Shown: positions 34,316 through 53,491 of the stretch, in pieces | Numbering within the stretch: position 1 is the stretch's first letter | Layout of the letters: every line of letters begins with the position of its first letter | Source: Castellaniella denitrificans | Lineage (GTDB): Bacteria > Pseudomonadota > Gammaproteobacteria > Burkholderiales > Burkholderiaceae_B | NCBI RefSeq assembly: GCF_027214045.1 | Contig: NZ_JAPWHE010000001.1 | Coordinates: 124,001-188,000, forward strand | Length of the DNA: 64,000 bases | Reading direction: 5' to 3' | Position numbers and translations under genes: made by a program | Notes under the pieces: model-generated | The model's input: only the letters and a program-made list of their open reading frames with translations | What the model was told of the DNA's origin: nothing | Databases searched by the model: none

Positions 34316-35056
34316 ATGAAAGTCGCCATCCTCAACTACTCCGGCTCGGTCGGTAAAACCGTGACCGCCTCGCACCTGTTGGCACCCCGCATGCACGGGG
34401 CGCAGATCTTCGCCATCGAATCCACGAACGAAACCGCCGGCGACCTCGGCCTGGACATCGACATGCTGCGCGGCGAACAGTTCGGCAAGCTGTTCCGCGA
34501 CCTGCTCGCCATTGACGATGCCATCGTGGATGTGGGGGCCAGCAACATCGAGGACTTCCTGACCGCCATGAACCGGTACGAGGGCGCCTACGAGGAACTG
34601 GACTACTTCGTGCTGCCGGTCATCAACACCGGCAAGGCCCAGCGCGAAACCATCAAGACTGTGGCCGCCCTGGCCGGCCTGGGTGTCCCGGCCAACAGGA
34701 TTCGGGTGCTGTTCAATCGGGTCGAAGTGAGTATCGAAGACGAATTTCTGGCAATCCTGGCCTATGCCGACAAGACGGGCGAATTCGTCGCCAACCCGAA
34801 AGCCGCAATCTACGAGAACGAGGTGTTCGAAATGCTGGCAGATCTGCGCACCACGATCCAGGACGTGCTGGCCGACGATACGGATTACCGGGCGCTGCTG
34901 CGCCAGGAGGACCCCGCGCACCAGGCGCGGCGCAGCCACCTGAGCAACATGATTGCCCTGCAAGCCCTGGCCAAGCCGGTTGCCAGGCAGATGGACGCCG
35001 CGTTCGCCGCCCTGTTCCAGCAGTCGGCTCCCGCCGCGACGGAGGACCGGCCATGA
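34316..35056 (+). CDS. stbB: StbB-like ParA/MinD-fold ATPase-like protein
   Basis: A 246-residue protein resembling StbB of IncW/IncN plasmids. The N-terminus MKVAILNYSGSVGKTVTASHLLAPRM carries a degenerate deviant Walker A (SGSVGKT), followed by ESTNETAGDLGLDIDML and DDAIVDVGASNIEDFL in the position of the P-loop partner motifs. StbB affects plasmid segregation and conjugation with StbA. The stop overlaps the next gene by four bases. Confidence 0.75.
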   Translation: MKVAILNYSGSVGKTVTASHLLAPRMHGAQIFAIESTNETAGDLGLDIDMLRGEQFGKLFRDLLAIDDAIVDVGASNIEDFLTAMNRYEGAYEELDYFVLPVINTGKAQRETIKTVAALAGLGVPANRIRVLFNRVEVSIEDEFLAILAYADKTGEFVANPKAAIYENEVFEMLADLRTTIQDVLADDTDYRALLRQEDPAHQARRSHLSNMIALQALAKPVARQMDAAFAALFQQSAPAATEDRP

Positions 35057-35513: not shown

Positions 35514-37199
35514 ATGCCGCAACTCTCCCCTATCACACGGCGGCGTATCGCCGCCGTGTGCCTGTCTGTTTTCCCCATCGGGGCGTGGCTCATGGCCGCG
35601 TCCTGGTCTTCTGGGCTGCGGCTGGCCGACTGGGACGCCAAAGCCTTCTGGTACTTCCTGAGTGTGACTTCCACCTACCCGGTCCTCTACATCCCGCCAG
35701 TCGCGGGCCTCATCCTCGCTCTGGCGCTCGTGATCTACCTGGGCCGTGCGCATCAATCCGACGGATTCGAGGGTGCTGGCTATTCGCGGTGGATCCGCGG
35801 CACGCGGTCTGTCTCCCCGCGCACCCTGGCGCGGATGTGTAAGGAGCGTGGCACGGTGCAGGCAGATGTCGCAGGGTTACCGATGCCGCGCAAGGTCGAG
35901 AATCTGCACCTGATGATCGGTGGCGCCACGGGTTCGGGAAAATCTGTGCTGCTGCGCCGCCTTGCCGACTCTGTGCGCCGACGCGGAGACCGGATGATCG
36001 TGATCGACCCCAACGGAGATTTGATGTCGAAGTTCTGGAAAGATGGCGACATGATCCTCAACCCCTACGACATCCGCAGCCAGGGCTGGACTTTCTTCAA
36101 CGAGATCCGCGCAGACTACGACTGGAAGCGCTTGGCAAATTCTATGGTCCCCATGAGCCAGGACAAGAACGCCGAAGAATGGAACGACTTCGGTCGACTG
36201 CTGCTGCGCGAAACCGCCAAGAAGTTGCACCAACTGCAAGGCGAAGACGCCAGCATCATGGATCTGTTCAGGCTCTGCACGATTGAGGATCCCAAGGTTC
36301 TGAAGCAGTTTCTTGACGGCACCCTGGCCGAATCGCTGTTTGTGGGTTCGTCAGAAGCCAGCAAAGCCCTGTCTTCGGCCCGGTTTGTGCTGTCAAACAA
36401 GCTATCCGAACACACCTGCATGAAGCCGGGTGCCTTTTCCATCCGCGATTGGCTGGAAGATCCGAATGGGGGCAACCTGTACATCAACTGGCGCGAAGAT
36501 ATGGCGTCCTCCATGCGACCGCTCGTGTCGGCCTGGGCGGACGTGTTCATCACGTCGATTCTGTCGATGCCAGAAGATAGGGATCGGCGGTGGTGGCTGT
36601 TCATTGATGAACTGGCCAGCCTGGAAGCACTGCCGTCCCTGGAAGCGGGCTTGACCAAGGGCCGCAAGAACGGCTTGCGCATCGTTGCAGGCCTGCAAAG
36701 CACGTCCCAGCTGGAATACATCTACGGGCGCACCATGGCCACCACCATCCGGGCATCCTTCCGTAATCTGGTTGTGCTGGGTGGCTCAAAGACGGATCCG
36801 CAAACCGCAAAGGACATGAGCGACAGCCTGGGCGAACATGAAATCGAACGTCCAGATTACAGGGTCTCCCGATCCGTGGATTCGCGCAACACGACAGACG
36901 GCATGGTGCGCACCACGGAAAAAGTTGTCACCCCTTCTCAGATCCAGGCCCTGCCGGAACTGGTCGGCTACGTCGCCTTCGCAGGTGACCATCCGATTGC
37001 CAAGGTGCAGATGCAGTACAAGGCGTTCGCCCAACGCACGGCCCCCTTCTGCGAGTCCGAACAGCTACGTCGAGTCAACGCGCCCACCGCAACGCAGTTC
37101 ACGCCGGAAGTCGGCGCGCTGTTGGACGGCATGCGCGAAGCTATCAAGACAACGGACACGATCGACGCCTCCGCACTGCCCAAGACCAGCGCGGCATAG
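35514..37199 (+). CDS. trwB: TrwB/TraD-type conjugative coupling protein (VirD4 class)
   Basis: A 561-residue ATPase that links the relaxosome to the secretion channel. Two N-terminal membrane helices lie near residues 10-30 and 50-75. Walker A is GGATGSGKSVLLRRL (about residue 135), then VIDPNGDLMSKFW; Walker B is RRWWLFIDELASL with LTKGRKNGLRIVAGLQS after it. These signatures place it in the TrwB/TraD family associated with MobF relaxases. A strong hairpin separates it from the relaxase gene. Confidence 0.93.
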   Translation: MPQLSPITRRRIAAVCLSVFPIGAWLMAASWSSGLRLADWDAKAFWYFLSVTSTYPVLYIPPVAGLILALALVIYLGRAHQSDGFEGAGYSRWIRGTRSVSPRTLARMCKERGTVQADVAGLPMPRKVENLHLMIGGATGSGKSVLLRRLADSVRRRGDRMIVIDPNGDLMSKFWKDGDMILNPYDIRSQGWTFFNEIRADYDWKRLANSMVPMSQDKNAEEWNDFGRLLLRETAKKLHQLQGEDASIMDLFRLCTIEDPKVLKQFLDGTLAESLFVGSSEASKALSSARFVLSNKLSEHTCMKPGAFSIRDWLEDPNGGNLYINWREDMASSMRPLVSAWADVFITSILSMPEDRDRRWWLFIDELASLEALPSLEAGLTKGRKNGLRIVAGLQSTSQLEYIYGRTMATTIRASFRNLVVLGGSKTDPQTAKDMSDSLGEHEIERPDYRVSRSVDSRNTTDGMVRTTEKVVTPSQIQALPELVGYVAFAGDHPIAKVQMQYKAFAQRTAPFCESEQLRRVNAPTATQFTPEVGALLDGMREAIKTTDTIDASALPKTSAA

Positions 37200-37324: not shown

Positions 37325-40228
37325 ATGATCACCTACAAAGTGCTGCGCCGTGAAGCGGCCGCCGATAACACGCACTACTACAATGATCAGAAGGATGACT
37401 ATTACAGCCGTGACAGCGGCGCGGCTGTGTGGCAAGGCGATGGTGCTCGCCGCCTTGCCGCCGTCGGTGATGTGGATCCACAGCGGTTTCATGCCATGCT
37501 GCGTGGCGAGTTCGGACAGGGTATCCAAGCGGGCAAGTCTGTGCGCAAGGACAGCAAGGCCCGCGCTGGCATTGACCTGACATTCAGCGCCCCCAAAAGC
37601 ATCACGCTGCAGGCCTTGGTGGGCGGTGACGAACGTCTGCTCAAAGCGCATGATGAAGCCGTAGCCGCAACGCTGGCATATATCGAGCGCCACGCGGCCC
37701 GTGGTCGCCAGAAAGAGCGCGGCAAAACGCACACGGAAGAAACAGGCAACCTGATCATCGCCAAGTTCCGGCACGAAACCGCCCGCCCGACGGAAGATGC
37801 GCCGCCAGACCCCGCCCTGCATACCCACGCCGTCATCATGAACGCCACCCAGAGGACTGATGGTAGCTGGGTATCGTTGTCGAACGAAGAAATCGTCAAG
37901 CGGCGCATGCTCTACGACGCGGTGTATAACGCCCAGCTGGACTACCAGGTACGTCGCCTAGGATACGAGGTCCGCTACGAAAAGCACCATATCGAACTGG
38001 CCCACATCAGTCGGAAGGCCATTGAGGCGTTCAGCAAACGCCGGGCCCAGATCGCTGCTGCAATGGCTGCGCACGGCCTGGACATCAATGAAGCACCGCG
38101 ACAACAGCGCGAACCCGCGCTGCTGGCCACCCGCCAGGACAAAACCAAGGAATACAACCGCGCGGACCTGCATGCGAGCTGGGTCCAGCAGGCCGTAGAC
38201 ATTGGCATTGATTTTGGTGCCCGCACGGCCCCCGAAGCCTCCCGCGAAGACCCACAGGCTCAGCGCGACGAGCGCCCCGAACACGCAATTGCCGACCAGT
38301 GCCTGAATTGGGCGGTGGCACACTTGGCTGAACGCGAAAGCGTGATGCCTCGCTCAGAACTGCTGGCCGCCGCCATCCGCCAATCCGGCGGTACGGTCGC
38401 CCCGGAAGTCATCAGCGATGCATTGCGCCGCCGTGCGGACGCGGGCCAGTTGCTGCGCAACCCCGCGCAGTACCGACTGGCGGCAGACTTGAAAGCAGAT
38501 CCCCTGACACGCAAAGCCTGGGCGCAAAAGGTTGCGACCCAGCGCGGCCAGCCTCTGGCCGATGCTCTGGCGACAGTGGACCGGGCCATTGCACAGGGTC
38601 GCCTGGTCGCCGACGAACCGCTGTATGCGACTCCGGCCGCCTATGCGGCCGAGAAACGCATTACAGACATGGAAGCCGCCGGTCGGGGCGCAGTGGCGCC
38701 TGTGATCACCCGCGAAGTGCTGCAACACACCTTCGAGGGCAGTACCCTGAGCGCTGGCCAGCGCGATGCCCTATGTCTGATCCTGGCCGAACAGGACCAG
38801 ATCGTAGGCGTCCAGGGCCTGGCCGGCACCGGCAAATCCTTCGCTCTGCAAAGCGCACAGCGCCTGCTACAGGAGCGCGGCTACAACATGGTGGCCCTGG
38901 CTCCCTATGGCGCCCAGGTCAGCAACCTGCGCCAGGATGGCATTGCGGCCAACACCGTGGCCTCGTTTCTGACGGCCAAGGACCCGCGCCGGATCATGGA
39001 CAAAATGGGGCCGCAGACCGTGGTGGTGATCGACGAGGCTGGTGTCGTGCCCGTGCGCCAGATGGACAAGCTGCTTGGCAGGATCACAGCGACAGGCGCC
39101 CGCGTCGTCGTGCTGGGCGATACAGCCCAAACGAAGGCCGTCGAAGCTGGCCGCGCCTTTGCGCTACTGCAGGAGCGCGGCATGAGAACCGTGACGATGG
39201 GCGACATCCAGCGCCAGAAAAGCGAACGGCTGCGCCGCGCTGTGGAGCTGGCCGCCGGTGGCCAGGCTAGCCAGTCACTGCCGTTGGTGGACCGGATCGC
39301 ATGCGTGCAGGACTCGTTTGGCGAAGACGAGCACGGCAACAAAACCCGCGACAGCAGCGCCCGCTACGAGGCTATCGCCGCAGAATACACAGCACTGCCT
39401 CATGAGGACCAAGCCAAGACCCTGATCATCACAGGCACGAACGATTCACGCAAAGCCATCAACGCCCTGGTCCATGCCAAACGCGGCTTGGCGGGCTGCG
39501 GCCACCGGTACCAGCTGCTCACCCGCCACGACACGACACGAGCGGAACGCTCATGCGCAAAGTACTACACGGTGGGGGATGTCGTGCAGCCTGAGCGCGA
39601 CTACAAGTGCGGTCTGAAACGAGGCCAGTTGTATCGAGTCGTGGAATGTGAACGCCGCTTTGACCGGATCTCGGTGGTGCCCATGGGTGCCCCTACCCAG
39701 ACGGACAAAATCATCGAAATCATCCCAAAAACGATGAGCAAGCTCTCGGTCTACCACCAGCATGAAGCGGAACTGTCCGTGGGCGACTGGGTGCGCGTCA
39801 CACGCAACAATGCCGCCGCCGACCTGGTCAATGGCCAGCGTGCCGAGGTCGTGGCCATCGATCCGGACGCCATCACGCTCGATGTTGGCGGCCGCTTGGT
39901 AGAACTGACAACAGACAAACCATTGCATCTCGATCATGCTTACGCAACGACCGCGCACAGCGCCCAGGGCCTGACCTGCGACCGCGTGTTTTACAACGCG
40001 GAAAGCTACAGTCGCACCACGGCACAGGACACCTACTACGTCAGCATTTCGCGGGAACGTCATGAGGTGGTGGTGTTTACAGACGATGCGACCGCGCTGC
40101 CCAAGGCAGTTGACCGAGTGCCCTACAAGGGCCTGGCGCATGACCTGGTTGGCCCCGATCATGCGCCGACAGGCCACGCGCTGAAAGCGCCGGAATATGA
40201 AACCGGTGATGATCTGGAAATGGACTGA
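37325..40228 (+). CDS. trwC: MobF-family relaxase-helicase (TrwC/TraI)
   Basis: A 967-residue bifunctional enzyme that nicks oriT and unwinds the transferred strand. The relaxase domain (residues 1-300) has the N-terminal tyrosine cluster NTHYYNDQKDDYYSRDS and the metal-binding His motif PDPALHTHAVIMN. The helicase domain has Walker A VQGLAGTGKSFAL near residue 498, Walker B TVVVIDEAGVVP and the C-terminal TTAHSAQGLTCDRVFYN and YYVSISRERHEVVVFTD motifs. The length is typical of TrwC (966). It is the last gene of the plus-strand transfer region, ending at a perfect terminator. Confidence 0.95.
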   Translation: MITYKVLRREAAADNTHYYNDQKDDYYSRDSGAAVWQGDGARRLAAVGDVDPQRFHAMLRGEFGQGIQAGKSVRKDSKARAGIDLTFSAPKSITLQALVGGDERLLKAHDEAVAATLAYIERHAARGRQKERGKTHTEETGNLIIAKFRHETARPTEDAPPDPALHTHAVIMNATQRTDGSWVSLSNEEIVKRRMLYDAVYNAQLDYQVRRLGYEVRYEKHHIELAHISRKAIEAFSKRRAQIAAAMAAHGLDINEAPRQQREPALLATRQDKTKEYNRADLHASWVQQAVDIGIDFGARTAPEASREDPQAQRDERPEHAIADQCLNWAVAHLAERESVMPRSELLAAAIRQSGGTVAPEVISDALRRRADAGQLLRNPAQYRLAADLKADPLTRKAWAQKVATQRGQPLADALATVDRAIAQGRLVADEPLYATPAAYAAEKRITDMEAAGRGAVAPVITREVLQHTFEGSTLSAGQRDALCLILAEQDQIVGVQGLAGTGKSFALQSAQRLLQERGYNMVALAPYGAQVSNLRQDGIAANTVASFLTAKDPRRIMDKMGPQTVVVIDEAGVVPVRQMDKLLGRITATGARVVVLGDTAQTKAVEAGRAFALLQERGMRTVTMGDIQRQKSERLRRAVELAAGGQASQSLPLVDRIACVQDSFGEDEHGNKTRDSSARYEAIAAEYTALPHEDQAKTLIITGTNDSRKAINALVHAKRGLAGCGHRYQLLTRHDTTRAERSCAKYYTVGDVVQPERDYKCGLKRGQLYRVVECERRFDRISVVPMGAPTQTDKIIEIIPKTMSKLSVYHQHEAELSVGDWVRVTRNNAAADLVNGQRAEVVAIDPDAITLDVGGRLVELTTDKPLHLDHAYATTAHSAQGLTCDRVFYNAESYSRTTAQDTYYVSISRERHEVVVFTDDATALPKAVDRVPYKGLAHDLVGPDHAPTGHALKAPEYETGDDLEMD

Positions 40229-40242
40229 CTCCCCCCCTTCGA

Positions 40243-40268
40243 CCCGGCCTCGTGCCGGGTTTTTTTTC
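40243..40268 (+). terminator. Rho-independent terminator of the transfer operon
   Basis: CCCGGC, loop CTCGT, GCCGGG, then nine T. It lies 15 bases after the trwC stop codon. Confidence 0.95.
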
Positions 40269-40326
40269 AACTATCGGCATTCGGTAGGTGATGGGTTGCC
40301 GAAAACATCCCTTAACCGTCTTATTG

Positions 40327-40403
40327 ATGTCCTTGATGTGTCCTGTTGATGTCCTTGAAGCGTCCTATAGATGTCTTAGAAATGTCCTGTATATGTCCTA
40401 TGG
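40327..40403 (+). repeat. Seven direct repeats with exact 11-bp period
   Basis: The core ATGTCCT (variants GTGTCCT, GCGTCCT and ATGTCTT) begins at 40327 and recurs every 11 bases to 40393. The strict helical phasing points to cooperative binding of one protein on one DNA face. The R388 StbA site is built of 9-bp repeats with 2-bp spacers, the same period. Confidence 0.93.
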
Positions 40404-40648
40404 GCTTCTCAGAGTAGAAAACCTGCAGTGTCTACGGAACCAAATGGCTACAGCCGTGGAACGATTCACCAGCATGGATCGGGTCTCTCCGAAGATTTGT
40501 AGCCTACCGTGTTCCACGGTGTCGATTTTTCGATTTTTCTTGCAAGCCGCGCTGGCGCTGGCTTTTGAACCCCGCCAGGGGTGCGTCATGTATGGACCCT
40601 TTAAGGCCACAAATGAGCGCCAGCGAATTTGGGGAATTGAAGGGTCCA

Positions 40649-40668
40649 GCAGGCCCTTAAGGGCCTGC
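40649..40668. repeat. Perfect 20-bp palindrome
   Basis: GCAGGCCCTTAAGGGCCTGC. Flanked by further inverted repeats in the control region; a candidate cruciform or protein site. Confidence 0.9.
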
Positions 40669-40853
40669 AGCGTCATCAGCGCGGGACCCAGGCGAAGCCT
40701 GGGATGTGGGCTATGACATCACCCTGACGACAGGCAGGGCCAAATCCACCACAGGCAGGAACAGGACGACAGCATGCCGGTATCTGAGACCGGGCACTAC
40801 CGGCAGACCAGGACATGAAAAAGCCCACGACCAGGCAAGGCAGTGGGCCAGTG

Positions 40854-40885
40854 CAGGCCAAAAGAAAGGGCCGTATCAACGGCCC
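40854..40885 (-). terminator. Rho-independent terminator of the minus-strand leading-region operon
   Basis: On the minus strand GGGCCGT, loop TGAT, ACGGCCC is followed by TTTCTTTT. It lies 23 bases after the DUF2442 gene stop and faces the transfer operon terminator. Confidence 0.88.
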
Positions 40886-40907
40886 GAAGGATTAGAAAAC
40901 TGGCTGT

Positions 40908-41228
40908 TCATGCCGTTTCAAGTTTCTTGATCTCTGCATACATGGCATCGGGGGCTAGGTCGATGTCACCCGGCCATGTCACCGCGCCATGATTGACGAA
41001 CGCTTCGTTGAATAGGGATGGATCGCTGAGGGCAGCAAAGACCCCCGCGCCAGCGGAGTGAATGAGTGCAGTCAAGTCCATCGTTCCCTCAGTGCCATCC
41101 ACGAATCGGACATGCAACCGAAACCCTGGGAGGGCTTCCACCGTCGTCACGCGCCAAGGCATGCGCGGTTGAATCGGCGGCGTTACACCAAGGGATGAAT
41201 CTTGTTGGGCTGCTGATTGCGAGCGCAT
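40908..41228 (-). CDS. DUF2442 family protein
   Basis: A 106-residue protein. The DUF2442 core is visible: WRVTTVEALPGFRLHVRFVDGTEGTMDL, FAALSDPSLFNEAFVNHGAVTWPGDIDLAPDAMYAEIK. The chosen ATG lies within the preceding DUF4160 gene (overlap 46 bases), after GGAGG; a later in-frame ATG at 41162 would give only the core. DUF4160-DUF2442 pairs recur in genomes and are often listed as toxin-antitoxin-like, but no activity is established. Confidence 0.75.
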   Translation of the reverse strand: MRSQSAAQQDSSLGVTPPIQPRMPWRVTTVEALPGFRLHVRFVDGTEGTMDLTALIHSAGAGVFAALSDPSLFNEAFVNHGAVTWPGDIDLAPDAMYAEIKKLETA

Positions 41229-41443
41229 AGTTCCCAGTCCTCCATAAGTTCGGCGCGATGTTCCTGCGCCCATTCCAGGATCAGAGCGAGCGCTCGCCGC
41301 GGCATCTCGCCTTCCACACTCTCCAACGTCCGGATGTCGATCAACACTTCATGCTCAGCATAGAGCGCGTGAAAGTGCGGCGGCGCGTGATCGTTCCAGA
41401 ACATTTGGATCAGGATTCCGTAAAACGTGCTGATAGTCGGCAT
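41183..41443 (-). CDS. DUF4160 family protein
   Basis: An 86-residue protein with the DUF4160 signature: MPTISTFYGILIQMFWNDHAPPHFHALYAEHEVLIDIRTLE and ALILEWAQEHRAELMEDWE. It overlaps the DUF2442 gene, and the two are likely translated together. The ATG at 41443 is used; an upstream TTG is possible. Function unknown. Confidence 0.8.
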   Translation of the reverse strand: MPTISTFYGILIQMFWNDHAPPHFHALYAEHEVLIDIRTLESVEGEMPRRALALILEWAQEHRAELMEDWELCARNQQPNKIHPLV

Positions 41444-41451
41444 TGTCAGAA

Positions 41452-41709
41452 TCAAGCGCTGCGGGCCACATCGTAGTATGGCCCTGGTTCATAGTAGATG
41501 GATAACGGATCTTCATCAATGGCGGGGGGGCATGGTGGCGGTGCATCCCCCTGTGCCTCTCTGAAGGCCAGCACGGCAGCGACCTGATTACCCTGTGCCC
41601 CGTCCAGCCATTTTTTGGCTTCGGCTTCCGCGCAACCGGTGCGGTGCATGACATACGCCATCGCCGCCGCTTGAACGACCAGGGGTTTATCAGGAAGGAT
41701 CCGCCGCAT
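41452..41709 (-). CDS. Small hypothetical protein downstream of ssb
   Basis: An 85-residue protein. A predicted helical start (MRRILPDKPLVVQAAAMAYVMHRTGCAEAEAKKWLDGAQGNQVAAVLAFREAQG) precedes a proline- and acid-rich tail with PLSIYYEPGPYYDV. The helical part resembles a UBA-like small domain in spacing, but this is only an impression. It begins 17 bases after ssb on the same strand and reads toward DUF4160, so it belongs to the ssb operon. Confidence 0.6.
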   Translation of the reverse strand: MRRILPDKPLVVQAAAMAYVMHRTGCAEAEAKKWLDGAQGNQVAAVLAFREAQGDAPPPCPPAIDEDPLSIYYEPGPYYDVARSA

Positions 41710-41726
41710 GCCGTGCCCCTTGTTGT

Positions 41727-42203
41727 CTAGAACGGAATGCCGTCCGAATCGTCAGCCGCCGCCGGCGCGGGTTTGCCGCCCTTGCTTTGCGGTGCGGATT
41801 CGTTGCGAATGTCCCGGCCAGCGACTTGCCCGACCGGCCCGTTGATGTTCTGCGTCGTGCCGCCTTCACCCCCGCCCAGCATCTGCATCTGATCGGCGAC
41901 GATCTCGGTGCTGTAGCGGTCGGCGCCAGTTTCCTTGTCCTGCCATTTCCGGGTCTTCAGACGGCCCTCGACGTAGACGGACCGGCCCTTCTTGAGGTAT
42001 TCGCCGACGATCTCGGCCAGGCGGTTGTAGAACACTACGCGGTGCCATTCGGTTTCCTCGCGGCGTTCACCCGTGGCTTTGTCTTTCCAGGTGCTGGTTG
42101 TTGCGATGGACACAGTGCAAACGGCCATGCCGTCGGGCGTGTAGCGAACCTCGGGATCTTTGCCCAGGTTGCCGATGAGGGTGACGCGGTTCAGTGATGC
42201 CAT
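41727..42203 (-). CDS. ssb: Single-stranded DNA-binding protein
   Basis: A 158-residue SSB. The OB-fold occupies residues 1-110 ([62 protein letters not shown]), with a flexible Gly/Ala/Pro linker and the intact acidic tip DDSDGIPF. Plasmid SSBs coat the incoming strand and are expressed early in recipients. An AGGAG site precedes the ATG. Upstream lies a 500-bp leader module shared with the radC-like gene. Confidence 0.96.
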
Positions 42204-42720
42204 GGTGCTTTCTCCTGATGTACTTCCGTGGTTGAAAAGGTCTTTCCCTGCTGACCGGATCCGAAGATTCTTGAGCCGGATCGTAAAAATCGAGGTTTAG
42301 GGATTGATCCTGGCGCCCGGTGTTGCCGCCGTCTTCCGTGAGTTCCGTCGCCGTGCCGTACTGGGCCACGAAGCGACAAGCGCAGGGGGGACCGTGGAAT
42401 AAATAGGGAGCGCCAGCGACCGGTTTATGCCGCGAAAGCCCCCCGCAGCGCCGGAGCGCAGTGGTACACGTCGGCGGTTTAGGCGGCGGAACTCACGGGA
42501 GACGGAGATCTCGGCCACTGCGAGGATCTGTCACTGAACGGCGGCCGCGCGGCGAGCGCCCTTTGTCGCGCCACCAGGCGCGGCACCAAACAGGGCCGCA
42601 TTTCGGCCCCCCAGGCAAGCGCAGCGCGCAGCGTCGCCAGACGCGAAGGCATGAGGGATGGAAGCCCGCAGGGGCGAGACCCGGAACGGGGGCTCGATGC
42701 GCAGCACGAGAGCCCGACCC
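42204..42720 (-). promoter_or_regulatory. Leader module 1, upstream of ssb (repeated upstream of radC-like gene)
   Basis: About 500 bases that resemble 45191-45705 in several blocks at the same distance from the gene start. A 28-base block is identical (42250-42277). Arms of a long inverted repeat lie at 42325-42352 and 42482-42505, and the same 24-base arm pair is present in module 2. A further 20-base block is at 42541-42560. It is non-coding; the shared design suggests a common regulatory element. Confidence 0.75.
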
Positions 42721-42873
42721 CGGCGTCGACAGCGACGGGGGGATGCACAAGCTTGCATGTGCCTAGACAAGCTGCGCCGATCCTTGCATCAGGCGGGGCT
42801 GGCGGGCAGCAGCCAATCGCAACACTGAACACCGCCCACGCCGATCGGATCTGTAACGCTTGGCACCCTGGGT
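42721..42873. other. Non-coding spacer upstream of leader module 1
   Basis: GC-rich sequence with no gene or clear promoter that I can support. It ends at the terminator of the DUF3560 transcription unit. Confidence 0.4.
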
Positions 42874-42912
42874 AAAAAGGCCCTGGGGTGCGTCAGCACC
42901 GCAGGGCCTTTG
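42874..42912 (-). terminator. Rho-independent terminator after the 46-residue gene
   Basis: On the minus strand AAAGGCCCTG...CAGGGCCTTTTT forms an 11-bp outer stem enclosing an inner GGTGC/GCACC stem and ending in T5. Confidence 0.85.
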
Positions 42913-42953
42913 CTTCTTTGAGCCAGCCCACAAGGGCTGGCCGGGTGCGCCGT

Positions 42954-43094
42954 CTATGCGTTCACCACGTATGCATCCAACAGCCGCATGAATGCCGCCA
43001 TCTGGCGCACAGTCATGAGTGGCAAACGCCAGGGCCTGCCCTGGTCGTGGCACTCACGCATATCGCAAGCCAGTCTGCTAAGATCGTGGCTCAT
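42954..43094 (-). CDS. 46-residue hypothetical protein
   Basis: Encodes MSHDLSRLACDMRECHDQGR and continues WRLPLMTVRQMAAFMRLLDAYVVNA. A GGAG site lies eight bases before the ATG at 43094; another in-frame ATG six bases earlier is too near the site. It follows the DUF3560 gene by 71 bases... in the opposite sense of distance it is the downstream gene of that unit, ending at a good terminator. Probably a small helical protein of the leading region. Function unknown. Confidence 0.6.
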   Translation of the reverse strand: MSHDLSRLACDMRECHDQGRPWRLPLMTVRQMAAFMRLLDAYVVNA

Positions 43095-43165
43095 GGTCAT
43101 TTCTCCTTTCATGTGGTGGGTGGCTGTGCAGCCCCGTTCAGGCCGCTTACCTGAACGGGGCGTTT

Positions 43166-43969
43166 TCATTGCGCGGCGGCCGCTTCCAGTTCTTGCATGG
43201 CCTGCCGTGCTGCCCATTGGGCATTGCCGGTCAACTGACGAACCCAGGCGCTGCGAGTCGGACTCCATCGGAAACCGTGACGCTTGAGAATTTCGCGGGT
43301 CGCCTTCTCCGGCTTACCATCGAACAGGAACATGGCGCGGTTTTCCTCGGGATCCTCGCGGTATACGTACCCTTCGCCTGATTTTTCGACGGCCTCACGA
43401 CTTTCGGCGCGCTCCAGTTCTTTGATTCGGGCCGCGATGCGGCGCATGTTGGCGCCGTTGTTGGTCAATTCGAACGAGGCGAACCCGATACGGCCTGCAT
43501 AGTCCGGCTCAATCAGGCGGCGGGCGGTAGCCTCGGTGATGCCATCCAGACCGGTCAGGGCCGCGATGGCTGCATGGGCATCGTTCCTGTGCTTGCGCAG
43601 TAGCGCGTTGGCCTTCTTCATGAGTTCATGGACGGCCTGGGCCTTGCGCAGTTGCGCCTTCAATTTTTCGATGGCGTCTGGATCGTCACTCGAAATCCCG
43701 CCCTTGCCGACGCTGGCTGCTTTGCGTTCGTAGTGGCCGGCCTTGTCCTGCATGGCAAATGCTTTGCCGTAGGTGTCGTGGATCCGGTTGCGGTAGTTGC
43801 GGTCGCGGCTCTCACTATGGTGCCCGACCAGGATGGGCTGACCGAACGGGATCGCCTCGGCCATCTTGCGGGCCTGGGCGTGAATGGAGTCGGCCTGGTG
43901 CCTTGCGGCATCGGCTCGGTCTTCATAGCGGGCGCGGCGGGCGGCTTGCTTGGCTTCGTAGGGGTTCAT
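43166..43969 (-). CDS. DUF3560 domain protein
   Basis: A 267-residue protein. The N-terminal two thirds contains the DUF3560 pattern (RRARYEDRADAARHQADSIHAQARKMAEAIPFGQPILVGHHSESRDRNYRNRIHDTYGKAFAMQDKAGHYERKAASVG). The C-terminal part (RAMFLFDGKPEKATREILKRHGFRWSPTRSAWVRQLTGNA) is a recurrent module in plasmid and phage proteins. Such proteins are common in plasmid leading regions and next to anti-restriction genes. No activity is known. An AGAGGAAA site precedes the ATG. Confidence 0.8.
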   Translation of the reverse strand: MNPYEAKQAARRARYEDRADAARHQADSIHAQARKMAEAIPFGQPILVGHHSESRDRNYRNRIHDTYGKAFAMQDKAGHYERKAASVGKGGISSDDPDAIEKLKAQLRKAQAVHELMKKANALLRKHRNDAHAAIAALTGLDGITEATARRLIEPDYAGRIGFASFELTNNGANMRRIAARIKELERAESREAVEKSGEGYVYREDPEENRAMFLFDGKPEKATREILKRHGFRWSPTRSAWVRQLTGNAQWAARQAMQELEAAAAQ

Positions 43970-44036
43970 GGTGCGATTTCCTCTAGGTTGTTGCGGCCTG
44001 CCTGGACAACAGGCCAGCGAGTGGTACTGCTGAAGA

Positions 44037-44585
44037 TCAGGAATTCAGCCATTGGGCATAGGTTTTGAGCGGCTGGCCTGTCGTGATGTCCTGGCCGCTC
44101 CCGTCATCAGCGCATGCCCGATAAATCTGATATTCCTGGTCGTACGTGCCTCGCCTGCGGAGCTTGAATTCGTTGACCATCCGCAGCGACCGGGCGCAGT
44201 CTTCCAGTTCTTGGCGCAGGGCGTCGAGGATATGGATAGCCCGGCCGCGAGTGTTTCTACCGTTGCGCACACTGGCTGCGATACGCTCGGCATCGCGCCG
44301 CGTGAACCGCATGCATTGATCGGGGGTCGTGTGGCGGGGATCAGATACAAGGCCGTTCGTGATCGTGAAGGACAGATACACGCCCTCGCAGGCCACAACC
44401 CAGCCCTCACCCAGCAAGACGCCGTCGAGTTTTGCTCTGGCCTGCTCCAGCCGTGCGCGGTATTCGAGTTGCGACGTAATGAATTCATTGCGGCAGGACT
44501 CGGCGGCGGCGGTGGCGTATGCGCGGGCCTCTGTCTCCACATCGACCAAAGACGCGGGCAAGGGTGGCAATTTGGGATTGTCCAT
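44037..44585 (-). CDS. Hypothetical leading-region protein
   Basis: A 182-residue soluble protein with several helices (VETEARAYATAAAESCRNEFITSQLEYRARLEQARAKLDG), a central motif SFTITNGLVSDPRHTTPDQCMRFTRRDAERIAASV and a C-terminal EFKLRRRGTYDQEYQIYRA. No family is recognised. The ATG at 44585 is eight bases after GGAG. It lies between the radC-like and DUF3560 genes in the same transcription direction. Confidence 0.65.
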   Translation of the reverse strand: MDNPKLPPLPASLVDVETEARAYATAAAESCRNEFITSQLEYRARLEQARAKLDGVLLGEGWVVACEGVYLSFTITNGLVSDPRHTTPDQCMRFTRRDAERIAASVRNGRNTRGRAIHILDALRQELEDCARSLRMVNEFKLRRRGTYDQEYQIYRACADDGSGQDITTGQPLKTYAQWLNS

Positions 44586-44647
44586 GTTCATTTCTCCATT
44601 CTGTGGTGGCTGGTGGTCTGTGGGCGGCACCGCCGCCCGGGGGATGG

Positions 44648-45190
44648 TTAACACTGGCCGCGTTCGGCCAGCGATACGGTGTCAGTCGCTCCGACAACGA
44701 TGTGATCCAACAGGCGCACGTCGATCAGCGCCAGCGCCTGCTTTAGCTGTTTGGTCATGCTGATATCGGCGCCGCTCGGTTCGGGGATGCCGGACGGGTG
44801 GTTGTGGCTCATGATGCAAGCGGCCGCGTTCATGCGAAGGGCGGTTTTGACGATTTCGCGGGGGTAGACGCTGGCATGCGACAAGGTGCCGTGCGCCAGT
44901 TCCACGTACTTGATCACCCGCAACTGCGTATCGAGAAAAAGCATTGCGGCGCACTCGTGCCCCAGACCGGTCAATTTCGCTTGGAAAAACTCTTTAACGG
45001 CCCTGGGCTGGCCCAAGGCCTGACCGTCGGACAGCAAACCATGTGCAGCGACTCGACCGGCGGCCAGGATCTGCGCATCGGTGGCGACCTGGTAGCAGCC
45101 TTGAGAATCCCGTACAAACAAGGTTTTCCCGTCGTTCATGTCGTCATAGCTGAGTGCCGGGGTAGCCTCGAAGTTCAAAGATGCTTGCAT
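44648..45190 (-). CDS. RadC-like JAB/MPN-domain protein
   Basis: A 180-residue RadC-family (UPF0758-like) protein. The metalloprotease-type JAMM motif is intact: MNAAACIMSHNHPSGIPEPSGADI with H-x-H...S...D. The region lacks the N-terminal HhH part of chromosomal RadC, as is usual for short plasmid and prophage versions. Function is not settled; these genes recur in plasmid leading regions and defence islands. AGGA lies eight bases before the chosen ATG (alternative 45196). A leader module identical in design to that of ssb precedes it. Confidence 0.85.
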   Translation of the reverse strand: MQASLNFEATPALSYDDMNDGKTLFVRDSQGCYQVATDAQILAAGRVAAHGLLSDGQALGQPRAVKEFFQAKLTGLGHECAAMLFLDTQLRVIKYVELAHGTLSHASVYPREIVKTALRMNAAACIMSHNHPSGIPEPSGADISMTKQLKQALALIDVRLLDHIVVGATDTVSLAERGQC

Positions 45191-45705
45191 GGCCATGGTC
45201 CTAAAAATCGCTTCCGTGGTTGGAAAGGTTTTCTGTGCTGACCGGATCCGAAGATTCTTGAGCCTGGGCGTAGATTTCGATGTTCGATGCGCTACGCTGG
45301 CCGTCCGGTGTTGCCGCCGTCTTCCGTGAGTTCCGTCGCCTTGCCGTGCTGAACCCCGTAGCGCCGACCGGAAAGGGGACGGCACGCAAGCCGCAGCCCG
45401 CAGCGCAGCGAAGGGACCGGGTGAGTACCGGCCCCTTGCAGGGAGAAGCGCAGGGGTACAGTCGGCGTTTTAGGCGGCGGAACTTACGGGAGACGGGTAG
45501 CGGTGGCCCAGGAGTGGGTGGCTGAGAACAGCGGCTGCGCGGCGAGCGCCCCCAGCCGTGCGCTTGGCGTACGGCTCAAATTCTGGTTCTGGGGGTTTGT
45601 TTTGCAGCGCCATCAGCGCTGTCCGAAAGGGATTGAAGCCCGCCAGGGGCAAGACCCAAAGGGGCTTGATTCACGAAAGCCCGTCCCCGGCGTTGCGCCG
45701 GGGTG
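45191..45705 (-). promoter_or_regulatory. Leader module 2, upstream of the radC-like gene
   Basis: Non-coding counterpart of 42204-42720. Shared blocks: 28 identical bases at 45237-45264, inverted-repeat arms at 45313-45340 and 45473-45496, a 20-base block at 45531-45550 and a further block at 45635-45657. Distances from the gene start (123, 283, 341) match those in module 1 (122, 279, 338). Confidence 0.75.
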
Positions 45706-45746
45706 AGTCAGAAGAAATTCGCGAAGGTCAGTGCAGAAGAGTCTCT

Positions 45747-45905
45747 ATGTGCAGCAAATCTACCAAGCACGCGAGAAAGCGAGCCGCTGCAAAACAATCC
45801 GCTGATATCCTCGCCAGCAATTCGATGAAGTCAACTGATCAGACCGAAATTTTGAGGCTGGCCAAATTGTCAGTCAGAACTTTGGCAGCGTGGCCAGGGC
45901 CATAG
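45747..45905 (+). CDS. Possible 52-residue protein
   Basis: A short open frame, MCSKSTKHARKRAAAKQSAD followed by a helical SNSMKSTDQTEILRLAKLSVRTLA. It has a basic start and ends just before the small gene on the other strand. GAAGAG lies upstream. Neither homology nor promoter is evident, so it may not be expressed. Confidence 0.3.
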   Translation: MCSKSTKHARKRAAAKQSADILASNSMKSTDQTEILRLAKLSVRTLAAWPGP

Positions 45906-45920
45906 ACAACCAAATACAAC

Positions 45921-46064
45921 TTAACCAGATCCAGCAACTGCTGAAGCCAGCATATCCTTCAGCTCATTGCGAGTGAGTTCATTTCCTGTGTCAATCATGA
46001 TGACTAATTCGCCGACAGGAGCGATTCTGACCTCGTAAGGGGTTTCACGCGCTGATTCACTCAT
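45921..46064 (-). CDS. 47-residue protein downstream of the restriction gene
   Basis: Encodes MSESARETPYEVRIAPVGEL followed by VIMIDTGNELTRNELKDMLASAVAGSG. It has no convincing ribosome site but shows a balanced helix-strand pattern and codon use like the restriction genes. It lies 95 bases after the restriction endonuclease gene on the same strand and may be a small accessory of that system. Function unknown. Confidence 0.45.
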   Translation of the reverse strand: MSESARETPYEVRIAPVGELVIMIDTGNELTRNELKDMLASAVAGSG

Positions 46065-46159
46065 AGAACATCTTTTGCTTTACAACTCAAGACTATTCAT
46101 CTACTAGGATCTTCATAATATTGATATGCAAAAGAGTATAGCTAGGACACAACCTCATA

Positions 46160-47302
46160 CTAACGATTAGCGCACACTTCGTTCCAAGCGAGCCGATGCT
46201 CATAACCAAGATCCGGATCTCCTTCGACAAGCGCAGTATATCGATTAATAAAAGAAGAAGGAGAGTCTATTAAACGAAGATAATATTTGAGTGTATCAAG
46301 AACTCCATTTACGATAATCTCGCAGCCATTGGAACGCCGAAATCCATCCGCAAGCTTCTTCACTTCGCTCGATTCACCTTCAGCGATGCCACTAGTAGAG
46401 AGAATTAAATAACGCTTAACTGATGCAGTTTTTATTTTCTGTATGGCTTCAGCAACATGTTCACGACTTATACCAATCTGAAACTTTATCTCCACAGCCT
46501 CAAAAGGTTCACCGTCTTTGTTTACATCAACATCTCCCACGGACCCACTCTTTCTATTAGCAGCTTTCATGCGTTCCAGAGGACCAAGCGTAAGTCCTTC
46601 ATAACGATTCATCGTTGGTATGATACACTGGTAAATCGCATAAATAGCCACCTGTGGAAGGCGAGGACTATTCTTCTCATACCCGCGAAAAAAATGCTCC
46701 TTCAATAGTGTGATGGTCTGATCTATCGATAAGTTCTGAGGTTTCTCTAGAGGAATTTTCCCACGATTGCGTGCGTCGATGAGCTCACCGAATATGATCT
46801 CCAAAACAGCTTTTGAGAAAGCCACCGGGTTTTGAGCAGATTGAATTGCATTTACCACTTTAAGCATCAACGGACCAGCTAACTTCGGCTGCGTTTTAAG
46901 AACCAGGTCTGGCAAGTAAGGCCCAGCGAAAGAGAAAGTTTGGCTTAGCCAATGAGTCTCCACATTGTAGTAAAGGCTGTGGGCCTGTAAAAATGGAACC
47001 GTTCCGGCATTATCGATTGAGCGCGCAGAAAAGCCACCGGGGTGTTCGGACTTGTGCAATCGTATATCCTGCCGTGAATCGATTACCTTGTATGCAGCAA
47101 GCGTCAAGGCGATGCCACGGGCTGCATGCCGGATCTTGGATAATTGAAGCACTTCTGCATAATGTTCTTCACCGAGAATTTCTCGTTGAACGCCCCAATT
47201 ACCAGATTTATGGGCGGCCTCGGCCACTAAATAAGAAGATTGTAATATCGCGTTGAAGCGCTCTAATTTTCCCTGTTCAACCTGCATATCAGAATCTTTC
47301 AT
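46160..47302 (-). CDS. Type II restriction endonuclease, possibly SacI family
   Basis: A 380-residue protein coded directly after a C5-cytosine methyltransferase with a one-base stop/start overlap (TGATG). The C-terminal third carries a PD-(D/E)XK-like core: GDVDVNKDGEPFEAVEIKFQ, with Asp and E-x-K in the right spacing, and then HVAEAIQKIKTASVKRYLILSTSG. Size and the pairing with an m5C methyltransferase recall R.SacI (GAGCTC), but this is recollection of the family type and not a computed match. The region is visibly AT-richer than the rest of the element, a sign of separate acquisition. Confidence 0.7.
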   Translation of the reverse strand: MKDSDMQVEQGKLERFNAILQSSYLVAEAAHKSGNWGVQREILGEEHYAEVLQLSKIRHAARGIALTLAAYKVIDSRQDIRLHKSEHPGGFSARSIDNAGTVPFLQAHSLYYNVETHWLSQTFSFAGPYLPDLVLKTQPKLAGPLMLKVVNAIQSAQNPVAFSKAVLEIIFGELIDARNRGKIPLEKPQNLSIDQTITLLKEHFFRGYEKNSPRLPQVAIYAIYQCIIPTMNRYEGLTLGPLERMKAANRKSGSVGDVDVNKDGEPFEAVEIKFQIGISREHVAEAIQKIKTASVKRYLILSTSGIAEGESSEVKKLADGFRRSNGCEIIVNGVLDTLKYYLRLIDSPSSFINRYTALVEGDPDLGYEHRLAWNEVCANR

Positions 47303-49146
47303 CACGCGCTCCTACGCCGTTCCAACTGTGCTTTTCCGGATAACAACGGAAAAGGATATGTACAAAGCATCCGCTCATCGCGGATAGTAGCGTGAGTCTC
47401 GGGCAATCGAACATCCCATCTCATCTCACGCAACTGGTAAACCAAGCCCTTAACCTGACTGGGTTGGCAGCCAACGGCGCTGGAAAAATCTGTATTGGAA
47501 AGAAATTGACCACAATTATTCGATGAACCGAAGAATTCAAACGATTTCTCTAGCACGGACTTTCTCGCGCCAGAGAGTGTAGTACTTACTTTTACGGTAT
47601 CGCCTCTATTCGCATAGTGCCCATATATATCAATAAGCGTATAGAACTGGCTATCTTTGGTTATCGAATCCTCAATGATGTCCCAAACTCTGAAAATGTC
47701 TTCGTTACCAATCAACCCTGCTTTACAATGCAGCACATCCACACTCAGTAAGTATTTTTCAAGCCCGGATATTACTATGTCTATTTCTCGCTTCGGTTTC
47801 CCCGCTACCGGCGATATCATGAGTTCGATGTGACTGCCAGCCCGCTGTTCGCTAACCGTATAAAAGCGCTTCCCCATCTCGGATATGGGAGGCTGTAAAA
47901 GCGTCTCTTTGGTAAAGAAGCCCTCATACCCAACAAAGAATTTCGTTTTCACACTAGCCCTGGGACGCTGAATAATCTCGAGATTTGGGAAGCGCCTAGC
48001 CACCTCGGATCTTGCAACCATTTTGAAATGATTCGTCCGCTCACGCTGCCGCTTTCGGAATGTAGAAATAAACCCAGCAGGCCGCTTGGCATAACGGAGT
48101 GGACTAGAGGGACGCAGTAGCTGTTCTTTAACAGAAACTGCGATCACTTCGGCCAGCCCAGGAGGTACAGAATTGCCGATTTGTTCTACCACTTTTCCAA
48201 ACGTGCCGACTAACTCATAGCTATCTGGGAAGCTCTGAAGCCTTTTCAGCTCATCAATCGTAAAATGCCTGTTCTTCCAATGGAAAGGTCCCGTGAATTT
48301 TCCAGGCTGTGCTTTAATAGTTCTGGACGGGAAGTGCCGATCAGCCTTGTAAAGAAAGTCGTGGAACTTTGAGCGCCATGCGAAGAATGGTTTTGGATAG
48401 CCCATTTCCCGTGTGAAAAATGAATAGTTCAGGCCTTCCGGGACCAATGGAAGCAGATGACCGTAGAGGCCATCAAACTCATGATAGGGCTCATCTGGGT
48501 CTTGAAGATCCCCAATCGCATCTATGATTGAAACCAGTGGCCTATCTGTCTCAGAATCAGGGCCGTGCGTAGGCACAGGGAACTCATAGCTTAGGCTCTT
48601 GTCGCGATAGCCCACGATGATCAGCCGCTCTCTGTGCTGGGGAACCCCATAGTCCGCGCTGTCTACGACTTCTGCTTTTAGCTGATAGCCCAGCTTCCCA
48701 AAAGCGTTACATATTTCCCGCCATGGCTGCCCGCCATTGGCTCCCGGCAACCCGTATACATTCTCAAAAACGAAAACTTTAGGCTCGATAGCCCTCAAGA
48801 TTCTGCAATATGACTCAAACAGCCGCCCTCTTTCATCGATTGTGCCCAATACTCCGCCAGAGCGTCTGCCAGCAGCCGAAAACGTTTGGCATGGAGGTCC
48901 TCCAATCACGCATTCAACACCGATTCCCGCGTAGGGCGCAGGATCGAAATCTCGGATATCTTCACAGTGAATTCTAAGGTTGGGACCAAAGAAACGGCCA
49001 GAACCGCTATTAGCCGCCAGGCTCTTCGCATAGACGGGTTCAATTTCGACGCATCCGAGGATATCAAAGCCCGCTTTGTGAAATCCGATATCTAGGCCAC
49101 CAGCCCCTGAGAATAAGCTGAGTGTCTTAATTTTTCTTGAGGTCAT
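47302..49146 (-). CDS. C5-cytosine DNA methyltransferase with C-terminal extension
   Basis: A 614-residue protein. Residues 1-340 hold the m5C methyltransferase motifs in order: I LSLFSGAGGLDIGFHKAGF, IV VIGGPPCQTFSAAGRR with catalytic Cys, VI VFENVYGLPG, VIII PQHRERLIIVGYR, and IX/X RLQSFPDSYELVGTFGKVVEQIGNSVPP. The remaining ~250 residues are an extra domain not needed for methylation and usually absent from simple type II enzymes. Start chosen at MTSRK; 49164 is possible. It protects DNA from the partner endonuclease encoded downstream. Confidence 0.9.
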   Translation of the reverse strand: MTSRKIKTLSLFSGAGGLDIGFHKAGFDILGCVEIEPVYAKSLAANSGSGRFFGPNLRIHCEDIRDFDPAPYAGIGVECVIGGPPCQTFSAAGRRSGGVLGTIDERGRLFESYCRILRAIEPKVFVFENVYGLPGANGGQPWREICNAFGKLGYQLKAEVVDSADYGVPQHRERLIIVGYRDKSLSYEFPVPTHGPDSETDRPLVSIIDAIGDLQDPDEPYHEFDGLYGHLLPLVPEGLNYSFFTREMGYPKPFFAWRSKFHDFLYKADRHFPSRTIKAQPGKFTGPFHWKNRHFTIDELKRLQSFPDSYELVGTFGKVVEQIGNSVPPGLAEVIAVSVKEQLLRPSSPLRYAKRPAGFISTFRKRQRERTNHFKMVARSEVARRFPNLEIIQRPRASVKTKFFVGYEGFFTKETLLQPPISEMGKRFYTVSEQRAGSHIELMISPVAGKPKREIDIVISGLEKYLLSVDVLHCKAGLIGNEDIFRVWDIIEDSITKDSQFYTLIDIYGHYANRGDTVKVSTTLSGARKSVLEKSFEFFGSSNNCGQFLSNTDFSSAVGCQPSQVKGLVYQLREMRWDVRLPETHATIRDERMLCTYPFPLLSGKAQLERRRSA

Positions 49147-49248
49147 ATTTATTTCACTATTCATAATTTCGTGGGTCTTATGAGCATAGTCTTGATGCTG
49201 CAGCCCATTGACCAAATTAGACGTCTATCAAGATGAGAATTCTGTATC

Positions 49249-49845: not shown

Positions 49846-49963
49846 GGACAGTTTACGGACACAGATAGCTGTACAAGTTTACCAACACTTTACGGTATTG
49901 CTGTATGAAGATCCAGTGATTTTTTCAGACTGTCCAAAAAACTACCGTTTGTTGAACATCAAC

Positions 49964-50815: not shown

Positions 50816-50945
50816 CACCACCCTATCCTTTTCTTGTTATCTAACTATGCCCCAGTTCTGCTGGCACTGCGCCCATATCGCTGGCTACGCTGATCGGTTG
50901 GAAATCTGACATGCTGTTGATGAAGACCGCTTATTGGAAGTTTGC

Positions 50946-52467: not shown

Positions 52468-53433
52468 ATGACGAACTCTAGCAGCACGTCGGCCAGCGTC
52501 AGCCCTGGTCGTCGGTCGTTTGCATCCGTGGCTGAGGATTGGCTCGCCTTGGTCGCTCCGACGATATCCACCACGACCCTTGCTGAATACCGCCGTGCGC
52601 TGGACAGATACTTTTTGCCGACCTACGGCCGCAAGCCGATCGCAAGCATCCAATACGAGGAATTCGCGTTGTTCGTGGCCCGTCTGCCACCCATGGCGGG
52701 CAAGACCTTCAACAACATCATGATCCCTGCTCGGGGGGTCTTTGAGTACGCTTTCCGAACCCGCAAGGTCAAACAGGACATCACCACTCATATCCTCTGG
52801 CGCAAGCACCAAGCGCCTGGCCCAGATCCGCTTGAAGTCGATGAGGTCATGACGGTCCTGGACCACTTGGCTGCGGCCTACCATCCGGTGTGGCGCAACT
52901 ACTTCGAGGTCGCTTTCTTCACTGGCCTGCGCCCCTCGGAAATGATCGCCACGCGCTGGCCATCTGTTGACTTCAGACGAGAACAGTTGCGGGTGTCCGC
53001 TGCGCGTGTCCGGGCAACGGACAAAGACACCAAGACTCACGCAATCCGCCATGTTGATCTGCAGACGCTCGCCCTCTGCGCATTGCGACGACAACGAGAA
53101 TTGACGGAATCGAAGACTGGGCTGGTGTTTCTCAACCCGAGTACAGGCAGGAAATTTGCCGATACGGCCGCGCCGCTGCAAGTTTGGTACGACGCATTGA
53201 AAGCTGCTGGGATACGGAAACGTGGTGCACGACAGACCAGACACACCTATGCCACACTGTGCCTGCATGCCGGAATGAACCCGGCGTATGTCTCGCGTCA
53301 AATGGGCCATGCAAACGCCAAAATGTTCTTTGAGGTCTATTCCCGCTGGATCGACGGTGACGCCAACACCCGAGAAAAAGCCAAGATGGACACTTTTCTT
53401 ACCGTATCTTCAACAACTCCTTTTCCAACCTAA
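52468..53433 (+). CDS. int: Tyrosine integrase of the element
   Basis: A 321-residue tyrosine recombinase. Core-binding domain in residues 20-110 (SVAEDWLALVAPTISTTTLAEYRRALDRYFLPTYG). Catalytic residues: Arg155 in TGLRPSE, Arg258 in ARQTRHTYATL, His281 in MGHANAKMFFEVYSRW and nucleophile Tyr291. The first His of the usual HxxR box is replaced by Arg255, a known variation. The gene ends 31 bases from the tRNA-Arg attachment core and points to it. It catalyses integration into and excision from the tRNA gene. Confidence 0.95.
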   Translation: MTNSSSTSASVSPGRRSFASVAEDWLALVAPTISTTTLAEYRRALDRYFLPTYGRKPIASIQYEEFALFVARLPPMAGKTFNNIMIPARGVFEYAFRTRKVKQDITTHILWRKHQAPGPDPLEVDEVMTVLDHLAAAYHPVWRNYFEVAFFTGLRPSEMIATRWPSVDFRREQLRVSAARVRATDKDTKTHAIRHVDLQTLALCALRRQRELTESKTGLVFLNPSTGRKFADTAAPLQVWYDALKAAGIRKRGARQTRHTYATLCLHAGMNPAYVSRQMGHANAKMFFEVYSRWIDGDANTREKAKMDTFLTVSSTTPFPT

Positions 53434-53460: not shown

Positions 53461-53491
53461 CTGGCGCGCCCGACAGGAATCGAACCTGTAT
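53461..53491. repeat. attR: 31-bp attachment core within the tRNA-Arg 3' end
   Basis: Identical to 16939-16969. It includes the encoded CCA end, the acceptor 3' strand and the T-arm of tRNA-Arg(CCG). Confidence 0.93.

Follow-up and report, generated by a model that had tools for sequence, protein, structure and literature searches.

Paired leaders upstream of ssb and a radC-like gene in an integrative and conjugative element of Castellaniella denitrificans share a hairpin box with leading-region modules of conjugative plasmids

An integrative and conjugative element (ICE) of ~36.5 kb in the 3.1-Mb genome of Castellaniella denitrificans carries two homologous leaders, one in front of ssb and the other in front of a radC-like gene; it lies at 16939-53491 of a 64,000-nt stretch (contig NZ_JAPWHE010000001.1, positions 124,001 to 188,000), the whole of which we call the window and whose numbering we use below. 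Each leader consists of two parts, a distal box of ~75 bases and a proximal concentric hairpin. We consider it likely that the two are establishment modules of the kind represented by Frpo of the F plasmid and the CUP (conserved upstream) repeats of IncN plasmids, which would fold in the strand entering a recipient and serve early expression, because the box is homologous to one in modules for which single-strand expression is proven, the giant hairpin has the same placing, and a loop code lies on the strand presumed to enter. Single-strand promoters are known experimentally in F and in ColIb-P9, and the promoter activity that we ascribe to the leaders would follow from the case of F. Coordinates are collected in Table 1, with negative positions counted from start codons.

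Between the two leaders 338 of the 502 aligned positions are identical (20 mononucleotide shuffles gave 42-49%), and ungapped blocks common to both recur in register, at spacings of 2967-2991 bases: D1 (79 nt, 84%), D4 (55 nt, 84%), D6 (36 nt, 94%) and D11 (26 nt, 92%), besides D15, D16 and D18. The first-pass annotation of the window had described such a duplication, with a leader length of ~500 bp; the duplication is real, but both copies extend ~520 bases from their start codons, and the distal end proves to be a separate conserved box. The longest identity is 36 bases rather than the 28 given there. Its pair of 24-base arms about 180 bases apart was recovered in the ssb leader (24 nt, 92% identity, loop 129, outer span 177), with a 25-nt version around a 130-nt loop in the radC leader, and the intervening genes are, as it had said, not duplicated: SSB, DUF3560, an open reading frame (ORF) without family and RadC are no copies of one another. 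Simple recent duplication was rejected as the origin of the pair, given that relatives retain two copies before different genes and that box and hairpin are separable (G004, G006 and G009 have leaders with no box match).

The leaders matched no Rfam covariance model at the gathering threshold. The radC RNA motif of Rfam gave no match in them at E up to 5 and none at the gathering threshold, and the phrase 'radC RNA motif' is absent from the open-access literature searched. At 40201-40268, weak Rfam matches correspond to the terminator that follows trwC. Five relative loci scanned at the gathering threshold yielded only a sul1 RNA (RF03058; L055 5655-5708), which belongs to the leading region of an ICE among the relatives.

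The box is conserved in structure as well as in sequence. We aligned box instances after removing near-duplicates and partial copies by hand (alignment A1 keeps 36 of 48 blast instances, A2 29 of 36). Across 29 cores, 97.1% of cells pair, vs. 85.4% in shuffles, and 47 cells show double changes, vs. 13.5 (0 of 500 shuffles in each case); sliding the structure along the alignment lowers pairing to 32-60%. Helix 3, for instance, occurs as CGAG/CTCG, CAAG/CTTG, CGTG/CACG and CATG/CATG. A further 54 distinct cores had 115 double-change cells against 38.7, a count that leans towards the model because these cores were aligned to it. The covariance model of the box (R1) was trained with the R46 boxes and both window boxes, and F and R388 sequences were excluded from its training. 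In F (NC_002483) it nonetheless found a box at -539 to -470 of ssb (E 1.5e-10) and a second upstream of ygeA, the gene at 64032 (-539 to -471, E 1.1e-7); it also matched both R388 leaders (E 6.8e-8 and 1.4e-7) and one place in the IncP-1 plasmid R751 (E 4.9e-10). This R751 box (L220 14829-14912) lies between trfA and, past a transposon-bearing stretch, the klcA antirestriction operon.

Further copies on other plasmids, for which the first-pass annotation had suggested looking, were found in 1438 of 72,556 plasmid records when the ssb leader was used as query, the match being by its distal 110 bases (14 of 60 records spread over these were examined). The box recurs in the IncN plasmids R46 and pLJ1, in MOBF plasmids of Pseudomonas and Xanthomonas, in pIPO2, and in Aeromonas, Burkholderia and others, usually with a few hundred bases between it and the gene downstream. 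Many box plasmids repeat whole leaders of ~420-750 bases up to the start codons (R46, R388, L033, L035, L038 and L043), with a proximal part that varies between plasmid groups. In the betaproteobacterial family of the window the box occurs in 76 of 268 genomes and 28 of 43 genera, with up to 18 in one genome among the matches listed, and the genome under study has two, both in the leaders described here; a third model match in the window (10825-10904, E 0.076) was taken as noise. The first-pass annotation had asked whether the sequence is found widely away from leading-region genes: the box occurs in many conjugative elements and, in the records examined, mostly by establishment-type genes, but it also stands beside parA (L145) and upstream of the interrupted klcA region of R751, and so is not tied to a single set of leading-region genes. 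In the open-access literature searched, with preprints outside its coverage, we found neither a description of a common box joining CUP, Frpo and ICE leaders nor a report of strand-specific GNA loops. Surveys so far have used BLAST with known Frpo/ssi sequences to look for relatives (PMC11541004, PMC12826799).

The loops of the box hairpins differ between strands. DNA loops of the form d(cGNAg) and d(cGNNAg) are unusually stable, and on the complement of the gene-sense strand, which corresponds to the predicted transferred strand (T-strand), the box hairpins have GNA or GNNA loops closed by C-G. With stems of at least 3, GNA loops in 42 of 48 boxes number 174 on the T-strand and 2 on the sense strand, vs. 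16.1 +/- 4.1 (maximum 28) in 200 shuffles, where near-identical IncN copies are included and overlapping hairpins are counted apart. The 54 further boxes with 60 nt downstream gave 182 vs. 1, the core count being non-independent since these boxes were found by the model; the 0-60 nt downstream alone, which are outside the model, gave 52 vs. 0 (47 of 61 boxes, 45 distinct). Over 400 nt downstream in 35 modules of the plasmid set, stems of at least 4 gave 48 vs. 1. The same bias marks whole leading regions, with borders that we drew from gene tables: for stems of at least 4 the T-strand/other counts are 23/6 in ColIb-P9, 15/2 in R46, 13/5 in R388 and 11/4 in F, and outside the leading regions of the same plasmids 7/7 and 9/8, 5/10, 3/7 and 0/1 (pooled, 62 vs. 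17 in leading regions and 24 vs. 33 elsewhere; Fisher P = 2.6e-5). The overall count for R751 is 17/16. Between 40200 and 46200 of the window there are 10 GNA hairpins on the + strand and 2 on the - strand (stem of at least 3). The DNA-type loops of the box lie on one strand, the one that homology and context predict to enter.

Downstream of the box, the proximal ~305 bases of each leader fold on the T-strand with z-scores of -3.38 (ssb) and -4.54 (radC), none of 100 shuffles being as stable in either case. The largest T-strand helix is centred at -214 and -210, respectively, close to its place in the two F modules (-205 and -204), in relatives (-193 to -228), in Aeromonas (-206 and -210) and in one R388 leader (-209), and it fell between -190 and -230 in 13 of the 21 modules folded. 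Concentric pairs number 75 in the ssb leader and 65 in the radC leader (a level reached by 1 of 60 shuffles in each case), 104 and 108 in F (0 of 60) and 40 in R388 (5 of 60); control values from 20 further upstream regions of the window ranged over 13-64. The 24-bp stem at the core changes in step across relatives, as judged by eye, and is almost perfectly paired in Paraburkholderia (L101) and among DUF3560 leaders; an unrelated-looking stem of 26-28 bp takes its place in Aeromonas. On the gene-sense strand of 48 distinct arm pairs (score at least 8), wobbles of the A-C/C-A kind (84) outnumber those of the G-T/T-G kind (15). This polarity points to the T-strand, but we give it little weight because the events are few in number and related by descent, arm composition favours it, and the box has the opposite at one pair. 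In a Burkholderia glumae plasmid (L042 5970-6451), inverted repeats of 27, 24 and 17 bp are concentric and make a nearly continuous hairpin ending 8 bases from the start codon.

The first-pass annotation had named the IncN CUP repeats and F Frpo as parallels, and both now extend to homology of the box in sequence and structure, with a like placing of the hairpin in F and the window. As in the window, the F modules are a duplication (57999-58621 and 63379-64011, ~630 bp, 85% identical), standing before ssb and the gene at 64032; judging from the genes named in PMC9849209, they are presumably Frpo2 and Frpo1; recipients are described there as losing the early expression of fusions to ygeA, ssb and yfjA when either is deleted. 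The two systems are alike in the homologous distal box, in a concentric T-strand hairpin at a like distance and in the T-strand GNA bias of the region, and differ in the larger F hairpin (span 317/318, vs. 245 and 178-230 in the window) and in the lack of hairpin A from the F boxes. R46 has repeated leaders before ardB, ardA, ccgD and ccgAI, comparable to those upstream of establishment operons in the window; from the gene positions these should be the CUPs, reportedly described in the IncN plasmids R46/pKM101 by Delver and Belogurov in 1997, a work to which PMC5371602 and PMC6289460 refer. Two of them bear the box (-655 to -579 and -609 to -533), which is the extent of the sequence homology with the window and was also part of R1 training; R46 has no long hairpin near -205 and its gene-proximal sequence differs. 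In R388 two leaders, one before ardC (23484) and one before the gene that starts at 19554, are 91% identical over 758 aligned positions and each carries a box, with a long insert (112 bases vs. ~75); one has the hairpin placed as in the window. ColIb-P9 (IncI1), whose single-strand promoters are said to have been described by Bates in 1999 and Nasim in 2004, resembles the window in the T-strand GNA bias of its leading region and in a hairpin at -196 upstream of ssb, with 74 concentric pairs.

The setting fits a leading region. The element is a complete-looking MOBF ICE inserted in tRNA-Arg(CCG), with 31-bp direct repeats that are its probable ends and genes of VirB4, VirB5-type, VirB6, VirB8 and VirB9 between them. 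Relatives have the same leaders in front of radC and DUF3560(-ssb). Of 17 relative loci 12 include trwC, and in all 12 the operon faces trwC and the noncoding block between the two is kept (~40569-40704 in the window). This conserved block (40569-40760) contains an inverted repeat (40593-40614/40627-40648), the palindrome GCAGGCCCTTAAGGGCCTGC and the hairpin CCCAGGCGAAGCCTGGG (CCCATCGAAGATGGG in some relatives), and together with nearby tandem repeats we take it as a candidate origin of transfer (oriT) region. Operon orientation and context fit a leading region whose genes are read towards the putative oriT, and the + strand of the window is, from homology and context, presumably the transferred strand. 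Scanning 84,980 genomes for the arm B pattern gave 75 matches, of which 47 precede a radC or DUF3560 homologue of the same orientation by 112-153 bases (487 in one case); the other 28 have no such homologue in the stretch examined, and those in Streptomyces and Clostridia look like chance. The long stem was in the expected position in 58 of 61 leaders, an analysis that retained five matches without a homologue (L082, L085, L102, L103 and L131). A class-wide blastn sample picked up only 11 of 369 genomes, several of them through short matches, and 5 stretches came up in viral contigs.

Beyond the radC-like leader lies an accessory block (46160-51890) with a 5mC methyltransferase (47302-49215), an adjoining 381-aa ORF without family that is perhaps a restriction partner, a resolvase (49249-49845), a TIR protein of CAP12/Pycsar type (49964-50821) and a YdaS/Cro-like regulator (51654-51890).

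Table 1. Coordinates in the window of the leaders, their parts and the main genes of the element
Feature	Position	Strand	Remarks
ssb leader module	42204..42740	-	~520-537 bases, ends at start codon 42203
radC-like leader module	45197..45720	-	aligned to ssb leader
Distal box, ssb copy	42648..42722	-	-519 to -445; three hairpins, GNA loops on + strand; R1 85.1 bits, in training set
Distal box, radC copy	45622..45689	-	-493 to -426; without hairpin A; R1 59.6 bits, in training set
Longest identity between leaders, 36 bases	42317..42352	-	pairs with 45305-45340
Arm A, long inverted repeat, ssb leader	42482..42505	-	24 nt
Arm B, long inverted repeat, ssb leader	42329..42352	-	24 nt
Arm A, radC leader	45472..45496	-	-300 to -276
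Arm B, radC leader	45317..45341	-	-145 to -121
Gene-proximal conserved block GGCTC..GAATCTTCGG..CCGGTCAGCA	42249..42277	-	radC copy 45236-45264
ssb (PF00436)	41727..42203	-	family match
DUF3560 gene (PF12083)	43166..43969	-	family match
radC-like JAB-domain gene (PF04002)	44648..45196	-	family match; start set at 45196 (in-frame ATG)
Candidate oriT region	40310..40760		11/22-bp tandem repeats 40310-40399 and conserved noncoding block from ~40569; hairpin CCCAGGC-GAA-GCCTGGG
TrwC/MobF relaxase	37325..40228	+	47% identity to R388 TrwC
TrwB-type coupling protein	35514..37199	+	
StbB homologue	34316..35056	+	43% identity to R388 StbB
Tyrosine integrase (PF00589)	52468..53433	+	family match
Direct repeat, 31 bp	53461..53491		other copy 16939-16969; matches 3' end of tRNA-Arg(CCG) 53462-53536

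In the mechanism that we propose, the transferred strand would enter the recipient and each module would fold before the complement is synthesized. Small hairpins with GNA/GNNA loops of DNA type would line up in the distal box, and the proximal ~250-300 bases would make up a single big concentric hairpin built around the 24-bp stem. That hairpin would offer RNA polymerase a duplex-like start on single-stranded DNA (ssDNA), so that ssb and the radC-like gene could be transcribed at once towards oriT with the T-strand as template, and conversion to duplex would remove the fold and end early expression. Within the module the box may serve polymerase entry, priming, or as a brake on the complementary strand. 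More tentatively, and with slightly less than even confidence, we suggest that it is an undescribed ssDNA element common to F Frpo, IncN CUPs, R388, R751, PromA-type plasmids and many ICEs, whose mini-hairpins would form in the transferred strand only, resist melting by SSB/RecA and act as a strand-specific tag, either marking where RNA polymerase or primase enters or serving as the brake just mentioned; the T-strand loop bias would then be characteristic of leading regions in general, including those without the box (ColIb-P9), and could be read from sequence alone. In the brake version, the incoming complementary-strand polymerase would meet the box before the hairpin and be held back there, and the delay would set the on-time of the single-strand promoter.

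Several observations weigh against an Frpo/CUP-type role. The homology to the F modules is limited to the distal box, the proximal hairpin having no sequence in common with F, and 8 of the 21 folded modules lack a hairpin near -205 (three of R46, the R388 ardC leader, Kp33, Ps38, Ec43 and Bg42); the 65 concentric pairs of the radC leader are barely above the best control (64). In 23 of 29 sequences of the first set of cores and 40 of 54 of the further set, one end pair of box helix 1 reads G-U in the gene sense, which makes it A-C on the T-strand, and in the further set the loop bias is gone at 60-400 nt downstream (12 vs. 13, stem of at least 4). ColIb-P9, for which ssDNA transcription is published, has no box (best R1 E 0.78). 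A nic site was not found: a MOBF nic motif, with at most 1 mismatch, has no match in 40200-41000 or 33000-35600. The first-pass annotation had proposed that the modules switch on several genes when ssDNA enters; box homology, loops on the predicted entering strand and a context that fits a leading region lend this partial support, but a consensus scan for sigma-70-like sites returned 0 in 40200-46200 (1.6 expected), a scan that is likewise blind to both F modules (0).

The main alternative, which may coexist with an Frpo/CUP-type role and which we consider unlikely as the explanation of the leaders, is that they hold ordinary duplex promoters silenced in the donor by a repressor of StbA/ArdK type and freed by dilution on entry (zygotic induction), stems and boxes being operators or relics. 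There is precedent in R388, where ArdK and StbA repress the known duplex promoters PardC and Porf7 and the leading genes show an overshoot once conjugation has taken place (PMC3937220), and in IncN2 CUPs, described in PMC5371602 as having putative ArdK sites and promoters. IncN CUPs are associated with the repressors ArdK/ArdR; given the StbB homologue of the ICE an StbA-like repressor may exist at 33843-34241, a label by position only. The empty sigma-70 scan speaks against duplex promoters too, and they account neither for the covariation, nor for GNA loops being biased to one strand, nor for the F-like placing of the hairpin.

That box or leader is a priming site seems to us rather unlikely as a full account, though it is compatible with an Frpo/CUP-type role because F Frpo is said to do both, its transcripts being described as primers and mRNA in PMC7736820 and PMC10085688. 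The box sits at the upstream end of a module, a position from which primers would be extended through the gene, and orphan boxes by stbC in R46 (L039 22150-22079) and a Pseudomonas plasmid (L038 7995-8072) are not directly followed by an annotated gene on the box strand. Yet the usual spacing of a few hundred bases from a gene is unnecessary for priming alone, and phiX174, taken as a control with a known primosome site, has no R1 match and a single GNA hairpin with a stem of at least 4 (at 4335). A role of the structures in the mRNA leader, as cis-regulatory RNA, would suit rows of hairpins upstream of coding genes and the G-U pair ending box helix 1, but we regard it as very improbable: GNA/GNNA on the DNA template strand become TNC/TNNC in RNA, and the 84 cores contain six c(UNCG)g loops and no GNRA. 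The orphan boxes near stbC and the lack of any Rfam match in the leaders also speak against it, as does a terminator-like hairpin at ~42870-42914, read directly and unlisted by the scan, between the upstream operon and the ssb box.

The covariance model of the box spans F, IncN, IncW, IncP-1 and ICEs of one betaproteobacterial family, which suggests that the early-expression device is much wider than the known cases, and lists of establishment and anti-defence genes expressed early could be drawn up for elements without a recognized Frpo. The strand bias of GNA loops offers a test of the transferred strand from sequence alone, and makes folding of the entering strand under SSB a testable question.

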